Source: Candidatus Caldarchaeum subterraneum
Lineage (GTDB): Archaea; Thermoproteota; Nitrososphaeria_A; Caldarchaeales; Caldarchaeaceae
Reading direction: 5' to 3'
Length of the DNA stretch: 56,424 nucleotides
Assembly (NCBI GenBank): GCA_937934305.1
Contig: CALHAG010000005.1
Location: forward strand, 1 to 56,424
Below are positions 41,585 through 44,881 of this stretch, one piece after another (position 1 is the stretch's first letter; every line of letters starts with the position of its first letter). The translations under genes and the position numbers were made by a program. The notes beneath the pieces are model-generated. The model saw only the letters and a program-made list of their open reading frames with translations, was not told the DNA's origin and searched no databases.

Positions 41585-42033
41585 ATTGTGTCCGGATAAG
41601 CAACTCTACCCGTCTCCACTCCTCATCGCATGGTCGCATATCGTGAATAGTTTTTTATTCCTTGTTGATTTTTTGCGCTTAGTTTGTTGGGGAATACCGT
41701 GGTTCTCTCTTTTGGGTATCTGAAGAGTCTCTCGACTCTATTCCTCATGCCGACTCTCTGGTGCTCGTATTCTAACCCTAGCCTCTCTAGTGCCCATCTA
41801 TACCAAGGACCACTGTCAACTATTACCTTATGCTTGTTCAGGCACTTCTTTAGGGTCTTCAGGAAAAGTAGGGCGTTTAGGTTAGCCCCTACCATGGGCG
41901 GCCTCTATAGTCAGTAGTTCTTCCGAATCCACATCGACTGCAGAGCAGACGTAAACCACTATCTTCGTCACCTGTCTCATCAACAGCTATACACTTTCTA
42001 CATTTTGGCTCAGAGGCTATAGCCGGACACTAT
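41585..42033. mobile_element. Decayed insertion sequence with imperfect terminal inverted repeats
   Basis: The left end reads ATTGTGTCCGGATA (41585-41598), and the inverted right end (42020-42033) reads ATAGTGTCCGGCTA, 12 of 14 identical and pointing inward. Between them lies the transposase remnant at 41623-42013. At 449 bp the element is shorter than intact IS6-type elements, consistent with deletion. No clear target duplication was seen. Confidence 0.6.
41623..42013 (-). pseudogene. Transposase remnant (DDE, IS6-like) with frameshifts
   Basis: Reading on the minus strand, pieces of one protein occur in different frames: KCRKCIAVDETGDE, then IVVYVCSAVDVDSEELLTIE, then ALLFLKTLKKCLNKHKVIVD and SGPWYRWALERLGLEYEHQR. 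AVDET, AVDVD and VIVDSGPWYRW correspond to the DDE core of archaeal IS6-like transposases. At least two frameshifts separate the pieces, one close to 41900, so it cannot make an active enzyme. Confidence 0.7.
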
Positions 42034-42240
42034 GCTGGCGGAACATCAAAATGTGAAAAAGGAAAGAAGGAGGGGTTGTATGCGCCATCTTCATCTCCTA
42101 CGCCTTCGCCCAAGACTTTCCCCGCGGAACGCCCGACTGTCTTCCGCCCGCATGTCATCACCCTCTGGGGTATGGGGTTGACGCCGCAGGCGCCGGCTGG
42201 TTTCTGTCACCCTTCATAGGAAAAGGTTCATTAGGAGCCC
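42034..42240. other. Structured noncoding stretch downstream of the TnpB fragment
   Basis: These 207 bp have no recognised gene. Several short stems are visible: AAGAC/GTCTT around TTCC-CCGC-GGAA near 42111-42142, and CGCC-GCA-GGCG near 42181-42195. Because it lies 3' of the minus-strand tnpB, a right-end guide RNA (reRNA) is conceivable, but no conserved end motif was identified. Confidence 0.3.
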
Positions 42241-43122
42241 TCACCCAAGATACCCCCGGCCTGGGACTGCCGGAGGGGTCTTGGGAAGGACTTCCTCCCC
42301 TTTTTCCCCTCCGAGTGGCAGACCCTGACACTGGGGGTCTTGGGTGGAGGCTTTCTCGACTGCTGTTGTCAGGTTGTCTAATGCCTGTTTGTATTTTCTG
42401 AGTTCTTTTCCGAGGTGGGTGTCGAGTAGGTGGAAACCGTATAATAGTAGTGCTGTTCTCGCCAGATTTTTTACCGCTACATGGTCTCTGTCATCTCGGT
42501 GTCCGCATTCTTCGCACTTCAGTCTCTCCCATTTGCCTTTCTCATGCTTCATCAGTTTGTTGCATTTTGGGCATAGGCTGCTGGTGTAGTGGGGAGGCAC
42601 TGTTACTAGCTTCCCCATCTTTTCGCATGCTGTTGACAGTCGTCGTATAAGCTTGGCTATGGGCCAGCTGCTGATGATATGCGACTTTTCAGGGTCTTTT
42701 GCTTTTAGCCGCTGCTTTAGCTGACCGGCGTTGAGCCGCTCCAGAACCACTGCCTGTGTATTCGATGCAAGCCTCTTCACTAAACCGGCTGACTTGTTTA
42801 CCCAGTCGTTGTCCAAGTTTCTAGCATATCTCAGCCACGCATATGCTGGTCTTCCATGGATCTTTAGAGACCGCCTGTTAACCCTTCTGACAAACAATAG
42901 CTTGCCGACGTTGCGTGAGACACGTCTATAACCCTTGAAGCGGATCAGCAGCCCAACCTCAACCTCCGCAACTATGATGTCTCTGACGTTTACGTCCACC
43001 ACGACCATTTTTATGGACCCCCGCAGCGCATAGCTCCGAAGCAGATCTGGAACATGTCCTCTCGCCCCGGCCCCCAACCCCGAAGAGCCGGAGCCGCCAA
43101 AGCGTTCTCCAGTCCCTCCCAT
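42241..43122 (-). CDS. tnpB: TnpB (IS200/IS605 OrfB) C-terminal part, N-terminally truncated
   Basis: The 293-residue frame keeps the RuvC-like core: Asp in VVVDVNVRDIIVAEV, Glu in AVVLERLNAGQLKQ, the zinc finger CPKC...CEEC, and Asp in DDRDHVAVKNLA. Full TnpB is near 400 residues and has a further N-terminal REC/WED region, which is missing. The first 38 residues are Gly-rich and unlike TnpB, so translation may begin at the ATG at 43008. A stop codon lies in frame just upstream of 43122. No tnpA is nearby. Whether it still cuts DNA is doubtful without its N terminus. Confidence 0.75.
   Translation of the reverse strand: MGGTGERFGGSGSSGLGAGARGHVPDLLRSYALRGSIKMVVVDVNVRDIIVAEVEVGLLIRFKGYRRVSRNVGKLLFVRRVNRRSLKIHGRPAYAWLRYARNLDNDWVNKSAGLVKRLASNTQAVVLERLNAGQLKQRLKAKDPEKSHIISSWPIAKLIRRLSTACEKMGKLVTVPPHYTSSLCPKCNKLMKHEKGKWERLKCEECGHRDDRDHVAVKNLARTALLLYGFHLLDTHLGKELRKYKQALDNLTTAVEKASTQDPQCQGLPLGGEKGEEVLPKTPPAVPGRGYLG
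42244..42285. repeat. Long imperfect hairpin at the tnpB 3' end
   Basis: The arms 42244-42260 and 42269-42285 are inverted with 14 of 17 positions matched and an 8-nt loop. They overlap the last codons of the TnpB frame. A second hairpin AGACCC-x-GGGTCT lies at about 42319-42340, and GGGGTCTTGGG occurs in both. Such subterminal hairpins are typical of IS200/IS605 ends. Confidence 0.6.
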
Positions 43123-43136
43123 AGCTCTCCCCCCTC

Positions 43137-43203
43137 ATCCCTAGACCCGGAGGCTGTGACCCCAGGCCTTTGGGATGAGACCTGGGGGCTTGGGTCTAGG
43201 GAT
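43137..43203. repeat. Nested inverted repeat upstream of the TnpB fragment
   Basis: ATCCCTAGACCC (43137-43148) is perfectly inverted at 43192-43203, and inside it CCCCAGG (43160-43166) pairs with CCTGGGG (43181-43187). With the hairpin at 42244-42285 it brackets the TnpB fragment and may mark the left end of the element. Confidence 0.7.
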
Positions 43204-43243
43204 CATTAAGCACGCTAACTGCCGCCGAATGTCTAATATCTGC

Positions 43244-43314
43244 GTAGGGTCGACAACCCTACTTTCTGCGGGCAGCCGACTACCGCCCTTTTAATGGCCA
43301 GGCGACTACCGGCC
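43244..43314. repeat. Three tandem covarying hairpins, 26-nt period
   Basis: Units start at 43244, 43270 and 43296. Each is 19 nt, followed by a 7-nt linker. Positions 1-4 pair with 16-19 in every unit but with different bases: GTAG/CTAC, GGGC/GCCC, GGCC/GGCC. The 11-nt centres are similar: GGTCGACAACC, AGCCGACTACC, AGGCGACTACC, consensus RGNCGACWACC. Unit 1 extends its stem to 7 bp. Stem covariation with a fixed loop points to selection on structure. A fourth hairpin with a different loop (GCCC-x9-GGGC, 43320-43336) follows. Confidence 0.75.
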
Positions 43315-43380
43315 CTATAGCCCAGCTAGGCGGGGCTTTCCACTCCTTCTCCTTACCTAGCCGTATTCAACTACTTTAAC

Positions 43381-43454
43381 CCGATATAATAACTTAACCT
43401 CCCACTTTCAGATACCTCTTAACTTATTTGAGGCTACCTACTATTCATTGTAGC
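43381..43454 (+). promoter_or_regulatory. Promoter and leader hairpin of the unknown 422-aa gene
   Basis: GATATAATAA at 43383-43392 is a TATA candidate with transcription expected near 43412-43418. GCTAC (43433-43437) and GTAGC (43450-43454) form a 5-bp hairpin with a 12-nt loop that ends exactly before the ATG at 43455; it could hinder or time initiation. Confidence 0.4.
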
Positions 43455-44723
43455 ATGCTCCTTAGACGGGTCTCCTTAGATAAGAAGAGACTCCAGGTCA
43501 GCATCTCAGGCAAAGTTTTCAATGTGTGGGGTAGCGAGGATGAGGGTTATGTCCTGAAAGGTGGTCCAAACCTGCTTGAGCATGTGAGGGGTATTAGGCT
43601 GTCTGACCTTCCTGAGCATTTGGCGGTAGAGATTGGTCCCAGGTTATCGGAGAAGTTTGGACTACAAAGAAGATTGAATTTCTCAGCAAGTCGGAAGGCT
43701 TTCAAAGTATCTTATCTGGTAACTGCTTCACGGGAAACTCTGATAGATGTTGAAGAGTATGCATCAGAGATTGCCCGCAAGGCTGAGGAACATGGATTCA
43801 GTTGCCAAACCAGCAAGACGGAAGAAGAGATCCACATTGAGGCTAGTTACCGGGAGGGCGGAGGAGAGGAGATAGGGTATATTGTTAAGCTTTTCGAGGA
43901 TGCATTAGCGTCTGCAGACAGGTCGATTGAGCAGAAAGAGGAGAATATGCGTCAAAAGCTGGAGTACTGGATAGGGAAGGTGGGACGGCTTGATGGCCGC
44001 TTCCTCTCAAAACTGAACGGTTTGGAGGGCGTGGCTAAATGGATTATCCACCCGCTCACCAGTAAAGAGATAGCGTACATACTCTTCGGCATCAAGCCTG
44101 AATCGTTTAATCTGGGAGCCAAGCTGTCTTACGCGTTACTTCAAAGATTCGAGGTCTGGGATGGCGAGACAATAGATAGGCTTAAGGCCTTAGGCATAAT
44201 AGCATACATGGAAGATAATTCGAGGCTCTTCTGCACGTTCACAGGATGGCGAGTCAAAAAGCTCCTCGAACAAATGATCTTCTTGGAACCTAAAAGCTTC
44301 ACCTCATCCACAGCCGGAGGCTACGACCCAATCTCCCTCCTCCACTATATCGGGAGGAACTTCCCATCACTGGCAATATCCAAAAGCAGGAGATTCAGAG
44401 GAAACAAAAGCGGAGCATTCAGATACGCCGAAAAAATGCTTAAACAGCTAACCTTCACACACATAGCAGCCCTAGCCGGAATCTATTGGCGGCTTCACAT
44501 ACCCAAGCAGGTATTAGAGGAAACCCTCAGCCAGCTGATCAGCCTAGGCTTCATAAGCCACAACAGAAAAATCAAACCCTTCGCCAAATGGATAATAAGC
44601 CTGATAAACGGCTACATCAGAAAAACCAAACTAGCCCCAAACCAAAAACAAGCCCAGACAACACTATTCAACTGGAACTGCCTACAAGAAACATTCATAA
44701 AACAAATATCTAAAAAGCAGTAA
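43455..44723 (+). CDS. Unrecognised 422-residue protein in the accessory zone
   Basis: The product starts MLLRRVSLDKKRLQVSISG. I recognise no family. The N-terminal half is mixed alpha/beta with a charged coiled stretch (ADRSIEQKEENMRQKLEYW, about residue 160). The C-terminal half is helical and basic with likely winged-helix character (HIPKQVLEETLSQLISLGFI) and ends in a Lys/Gln-rich tail. A TTG at 43428 would add nine residues. Codon use near the 3' end is A-rich, unlike housekeeping neighbours, which fits recent transfer. It lies between the hairpin array and tRNA-Tyr. A nucleic-acid-binding role is a guess. Confidence 0.7.
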   Translation: MLLRRVSLDKKRLQVSISGKVFNVWGSEDEGYVLKGGPNLLEHVRGIRLSDLPEHLAVEIGPRLSEKFGLQRRLNFSASRKAFKVSYLVTASRETLIDVEEYASEIARKAEEHGFSCQTSKTEEEIHIEASYREGGGEEIGYIVKLFEDALASADRSIEQKEENMRQKLEYWIGKVGRLDGRFLSKLNGLEGVAKWIIHPLTSKEIAYILFGIKPESFNLGAKLSYALLQRFEVWDGETIDRLKALGIIAYMEDNSRLFCTFTGWRVKKLLEQMIFLEPKSFTSSTAGGYDPISLLHYIGRNFPSLAISKSRRFRGNKSGAFRYAEKMLKQLTFTHIAALAGIYWRLHIPKQVLEETLSQLISLGFISHNRKIKPFAKWIISLINGYIRKTKLAPNQKQAQTTLFNWNCLQETFIKQISKKQ

Positions 44724-44757: not shown

Positions 44758-44881
44758 TCCCGCGGGCAGGATTTGAACCTGCGACCACCCGGTTTCCATG
44801 TTGCCTGGCGGGCTGAACATCGGCTCAGCCACGGGGCTGACCGCTACAGCCGGGCGCTCTACCAGGCTGAGCTACCGCGGG
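44758..44881 (-). tRNA. tRNA-Tyr (GTA) with 50-nt intron
   Basis: On the minus strand the exons give acceptor CCCGCGG/CCGCGGG, D-stem GCTC/GAGC, anticodon stem CCCGG/CCGGG with loop start CTGTAG (anticodon GTA), and T-arm GCAGG-TTCAAAT-CCTGC. The intron at 44794-44843 sits after position 37, the canonical site, and holds the hairpin GGCTGA-x-TCAGCC. Removal needs the archaeal splicing endonuclease, and ligation the RtcB encoded at 308-3187. Confidence 0.93.

Follow-up and report, generated by a model that had tools for sequence, protein, structure and literature searches.

Hairpins and a pseudoknot between two divergent genes

We analysed a 56-kb stretch of DNA (56,424 nucleotides, hereafter the window) from the archaeon Candidatus Caldarchaeum subterraneum, and within it a short array of hairpins placed between two divergent genes. 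The minus-strand gene encodes a cut-down relative of Cas12/TnpB, named here mini-TnpB (293 amino acids (aa); 42241 to 43122), and the plus-strand gene encodes a protein of 422 aa (43455 to 44723). The array is part of a structured RNA of about 120 nucleotides (nt), at 43240 to 43365, whose units are given below as read on the minus strand. In that direction, the parts are a TATA-like box, a 5' H-type pseudoknot, three hairpins, and then mini-TnpB.

A preliminary description had reported three units at a 26-nt period, and all three were found exactly where it placed them: hairpin A (43296 to 43314, GGCCGG-UAGUCGC-CUGGCC), hairpin B (43270 to 43288, GGGCGG-UAGUCGG-CUGCCC) and hairpin C (43244 to 43262, GUAGGG-UUGUCGA-CCCUAC). 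They are 19-nt units at an exact 26-nt period, joined by linkers of about 5 to 8 nt. The stems had been described as having 4 bp; on the minus strand, each unit is a 6-bp stem closed by a 7-nt loop of consensus YWRUCGN. The constant loop RGNCGACWACC of the earlier description does recur, but it corresponds to the plus-strand reading of this loop plus the two top pairs of the stem. Likewise, the repetition of the linker TATCTGC as TTTCTGC is present in the window, but is not kept in relatives.

When the window was scanned for a 6-bp stem enclosing YWRUCGN, the three array units and one stray were returned; 100 first-order Markov shuffles, none of which had two units within 40 nt of each other, gave 0.39 per window. 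The window's own genome has 20 matches to the loop, with 7-nt-loop stems in the three array units only. The statement that the element belongs to no known family holds for Rfam, where nothing scored above the gathering threshold and no plausible match appeared up to E 5; a search of a literature library also found no description.

What had been taken for a separate fourth hairpin (43320 to 43336) turned out to be stem 2 of the pseudoknot, GCCC(C)/(U)GGGC. Its loop, GCCUAGC (43325 to 43331), is the 3' arm of stem 1, and pairs with the 5' arm GCUAGGU (43361 to 43355).

Compensatory change and strand of the array RNA

Candidatus Pelearchaeum maunauluense and Wolframiiraptor gerlachensis carry this RNA as well, flanked by the same two genes. 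Selection on base pairing had been proposed, and a lack of covarying homologous copies elsewhere was to count against it; the opposite was found, as full covarying copies exist in these two other genera. Alignment with MAFFT, which uses sequence only, brought the hairpins of the three species into register, and all 18 hairpin pairs are kept in the three of them, eight of these through changes in both arms, to which the pseudoknot adds three. Among 22 pairs tested in the three species, 97% of cells are paired and in 8 pairs both sides changed; a result as good was reached in none of 500 shuffles, and slid-partner controls were 33 to 50% paired, though only three sequences enter this test and the structure was defined from those same sequences. 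The two unpaired cells arise because one of the species has stem 2 shifted by one column. For stem 1 (pseudoknot cores, loops excluded), the 7 pairs are kept across the three species, three of them with double changes (C-G to U-A, A-U to G-C and G-C to C-G), so that the arms read GCUAGGU/GCCUAGC in one species and GUUGGCC/GGCCAAC in another. This pairing was equalled by 16 of 500 shuffles.

At the nucleotide level, the array RNA (53 to 65% identity between species) is about as conserved as the mini-TnpB gene (60 to 62%), and more than the 422-aa gene (42 to 52%). The unit spacing, 26 and 26 in the window, ranges from 24 to 26 in relatives, and the stretch is therefore non-coding. All three hairpins are present in the minimum-energy folds of each of the two relatives. 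Compared with shuffled sequences, the minus strand of the window folds with a z-score of -2.4 (121-nt stretch), and the array RNA alone gives -1.5, -1.5 and -2.8 in the three species. The plus strand of the window shows no excess over shuffles (0.05 and -0.1). In the two relatives, however, the opposite strand also folds well (-2.2 and -2.4), so that folding scores alone leave the strand unsettled.

Wobble pairs and promoter-like boxes support a minus-strand RNA rather than the plus-strand reading of the preliminary description. Three wobble pairs, two of them in the window hairpins and the third in stem 1, read as G-U on the minus strand but as A.C on the plus strand. A TATA-like box, TTATTATAT, is read directly on the minus strand at 43384 to 43392 and may be the promoter of the array RNA; its TTATA begins about 28 nt ahead of stem 1 in the window and in Pelearchaeum, and Wolframiiraptor has an AT-rich TATA-like box at the same distance. 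The same AT box in the opposite reading, GATATAATAA (43383 to 43392, plus strand; GGTATAATAA in Pelearchaeum), is the TATA-like box of the 422-aa gene, and it is placed downstream of the array. A plus-strand leader of the 422-aa gene, as had been suggested, was rejected: the promoter is on the wrong side, the wobble pairs are wrong and the window has no excess folding on that strand. The RNA would run the opposite way, into mini-TnpB.

The neighbouring genes and the distribution of the module

Mini-TnpB matches PF07282 (E 1.7e-13) and comprises a RuvC domain (D43, E128, DDRDH) followed by a zinc-ribbon/TNB domain. D43 and E128 are invariant in five mini-TnpB proteins, and a DDRDH-type motif is found in four. 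The protein starts at RuvC-I: the NCBIfam profiles are matched only from position 207 of 431 or 264 of 389 onwards, and no OrfB N-terminal Pfam match was obtained. Its predicted model, of modest confidence, has Foldseek matches to Cas12g, Cas12f and TnpB. By these comparisons, mini-TnpB is a reduced member of the Cas12/TnpB group in which the WED/REC half is missing.

Over and after the 3' end of the gene, a conserved structured RNA (42107 to 42352, minus strand) was delineated from a six-species alignment and its consensus fold. Compensatory changes affect 17 of its 49 pairs; it has a TAATGAACCTT-like core, which is invariant, and CAAGGCCCC/GGGGAAAGCCUUG as closing stem. It is shared by a divergent mini-TnpB of another genome (G035, L040). 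This 3' RNA is likely an omegaRNA, with a presumed guide function. The whole resembles the TnpB/omegaRNA pairs of IS200/IS605 and IS607 elements in having a RuvC nuclease with a TNB zinc ribbon and a structured RNA over the gene's 3' end. It differs from them in the absence of the WED/REC half, in the extra 5' RNA with its pseudoknot and hairpin array, and in the divergent 422-aa gene that stands in place of TnpA. No Y1 or serine transposase was found adjacent.

The 422-aa protein (isoelectric point 9.6, with a basic C-terminal part) is always beside mini-TnpB. Its predicted model is confident (pLDDT, the predicted local distance difference test score, of 87), and gave no TnpB/Cas12 match and no convincing structural match in the PDB; sequence searches of Pfam and NCBIfam were equally without convincing result, a DUF505 match in one homologue being weak and below threshold. 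The family occurs in 6 of 398 genomes sampled from the phylum, plus one marginal match.

A DNA search over 101 genomes returned one homologous locus beyond the window, that of Pelearchaeum (G004), which belongs to the same family as the window genome in the taxonomy scheme used. Searches with the 422-aa protein led to Wolframiiraptor gerlachensis (G038), Calditenuis fumarioli (G014) and HRbin02 (G018). In all these relatives, a short TnpB is encoded divergently from the 422-aa homologue, and the space between them holds the array or one hairpin; Calditenuis and HRbin02 have a single hairpin at the same place. Wherever both genes occur together (5 of 5 loci), an array or single hairpin is present. 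In G035, the divergent mini-TnpB has the 3' RNA but is accompanied by neither the hairpins nor the 422-aa gene. The covariance model of the array RNA (R1) has full-array matches in no genome other than the three from which it was built, with E values of about 1e-29 to 1e-30 (122.7 bits and E 1.5e-30 for the window in a search of the retrieved loci, its own sequence being in the model). It independently finds the single Calditenuis hairpin at the homologous site, with 16 bits. Weak matches in ten other genomes (17 to 20 bits, E 0.01 to 0.1 over the 398 genomes) are at chance level.

The module formed by mini-TnpB, the array RNA and the 422-aa protein is thus patchy, and restricted to a few hot-spring archaea of the Caldarchaeales. 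The HRbin02 copy (L034, 2443 to 4638) looks decayed, since its mini-TnpB and 422-aa homologue are both frameshifted; its hairpin is mismatched. In G005, what is left of the 422-aa gene is its C-terminal part alone. A genome of the same genus (G002, L072/L082), which has lost 41904 to 44660 and with it the module, was considered as an empty site, and rejected because the 422-aa gene is still represented by its last 60 bp, which indicates a deletion. An intron-bearing tRNA gene (44758 to 44881, minus strand), found by Rfam and missed by ARAGORN in its bacterial setting, lies 34 bp from the end of the 422-aa gene, and in Wolframiiraptor (L024, about 1426 to 1441) the 422-aa homologue extends into a tRNA gene of the same kind. 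This hints that the tRNA gene may be a preferred insertion site of the module. A viral origin was not retained, as scans of viral contigs with mini-TnpB and the 422-aa protein found nothing; a two-unit loop pattern was met in 104 viral stretches, with clustered paired units in none of those examined as loci.

Possible roles of the array RNA

The RNA structure and the module are well supported, and the multivalent hairpin RNA proposed in the preliminary description finds support. Our preferred interpretation, with a probability of about 0.42, is that the array is a leader RNA through which the mini-TnpB transcript binds a protein. The leader, about 120 nt long, would be transcribed from the putative minus-strand promoter, begin near 43361 to 43365 with the pseudoknot, continue through the three hairpins and run into the mini-TnpB reading frame, being continuous with its mRNA. 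By showing the loop motif several times, it would form a multivalent docking site for a protein. The prime candidate for the ligand is the protein of 422 aa encoded divergently, since its gene and the hairpins are retained or lost jointly; mini-TnpB itself would be the alternative. The regulatory outcome that we infer is a control of the expression, or of the ribonucleoprotein assembly, of the unit made of mini-TnpB and the 3' RNA.

RNAs of this general type exist in bacteria: CsrB/RsmZ-type RNAs act in trans by presenting GGA loops to the CsrA protein. They share with the array several hairpins carrying one loop motif, covarying stems and, if the proposal is right, multivalent protein docking; the array, in contrast, is archaeal and has no sequence relation to them. 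In ToxI RNAs of type III toxin-antitoxin systems, tandem structured units and a pseudoknot stand upstream of a protein gene, as they do here. Here, however, the units differ in sequence, the single pseudoknot is outside the repeat, and there is no ToxN-like toxin. The earlier suggestion of an antitoxin RNA is accordingly not supported, as neither neighbour gene matches a toxin family (ToxN/Abi-like).

Several observations weigh against a multivalent leader. With neither a terminator nor a processing site found, a leader and a stand-alone RNA are both possible, although the lack of a terminator-like U-run after hairpin C leads us to read the array RNA as part of the mini-TnpB transcript. The 422-aa protein is fast-evolving, and none of the known RNA-binding domains is recognised in it. 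The comparison with G035 is a single case, and the known set consists of three full arrays and two single hairpins, all from one order. Finally, Calditenuis and HRbin02 function, if at all, with one hairpin, so that multivalency would not be essential.

It is possible, though somewhat unlikely, that the array RNA is instead a structural subunit of a ribonucleoprotein, supplying in trans, with the 422-aa protein, the role of the lost RNA-binding WED/REC half. Mini-TnpB does keep its RuvC residues and TNB domain with nothing N-terminal of RuvC, and the array RNA and the 422-aa gene always accompany this mini-TnpB subfamily. Pseudoknots are also common in omegaRNA and Cas12f guides. On the other hand, the G035 protein dispenses with both partners while keeping a 3' RNA, and the 422-aa protein was rejected as the N-terminal half of a split TnpB, since its profile is unlike that half (hhalign probability 0.2%) and its model matches no TnpB or Cas12. 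That the module would be a split RNA-guided nuclease without known counterpart outside the Caldarchaeales, in which a RuvC-only TnpB has handed RNA binding and target recognition to the array RNA and a new protein family, appears doubtful. If the parts do work together, a TnpB nuclease would be reducible to its RuvC core, controlled or completed by an RNA and a partner, and this bears on the central question of how Cas12 enzymes arose. In any case, the module contributes an RNA structure absent from Rfam, a protein family whose fold matches none known, and a clade of TnpB proteins that lack the guide-RNA-binding half of their characterised relatives; its parts are small and amenable to study in vitro.

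The hairpins might also act as DNA, as sites for a recombinase, transposase or regulator (iterons, or single-stranded hairpins as in IS200/IS605 ends). Such a role would suit palindromes lying between divergent genes in a module that is patchy and probably mobile, and would suit the two loci that abut the same intron-bearing tRNA gene. We nevertheless hold this, including the iteron-like sites proposed earlier, to be distinctly unlikely: the arms vary with pairing kept while the loop is conserved, which is the reverse of what double-strand DNA sites show; one of the two strands reads the imperfect pairs as G-U; the array is inside the module and not at its ends; the pseudoknot has no obvious meaning as a DNA site; and a Y1 transposase is lacking.

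A ligand-sensing riboswitch or attenuator ahead of mini-TnpB would agree with the 5' leader position, and among aptamers, H-type pseudoknots whose loop is rich in purines are common. Three near-identical hairpins that share a loop motif are more readily explained by a protein ligand, and no terminator, alternative fold or plausible Rfam match was found, which makes this hypothesis very improbable.

Least credible of all is a guide array akin to the stem-loop TIGR arrays (PMC12045711), in which the variable arms would be the spacers and the constant loop the repeat, since the resemblance to TIGR-Tas (tandem stem-loops with variable palindromic parts and variable flanks near a RuvC-domain gene) is offset by the absence of box C/D and of a Nop domain in mini-TnpB and the 422-aa family (PF01798 absent from six members), by arms of only 6 nt that are mutually complementary, by linkers too short for two 8- to 12-nt spacers, and by the number of units, three only.

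Two stretches beside the array RNA may be added. The DNA at 43403 to 43426, with the divergent promoter box on one side and the 422-aa gene on the other, is conserved (CACTTTCAGAYA..CTCT, with TGAAAG on the minus strand); it is also found in Pelearchaeum and, more weakly, in the others, and may be an operator or promoter element. Just before the ribosome-binding site of mini-TnpB, a long minus-strand hairpin with 12-bp perfect arms (43137 to 43203) is kept in Pelearchaeum, and GC-rich hairpins are also present at the mini-TnpB start in Wolframiiraptor and Calditenuis.
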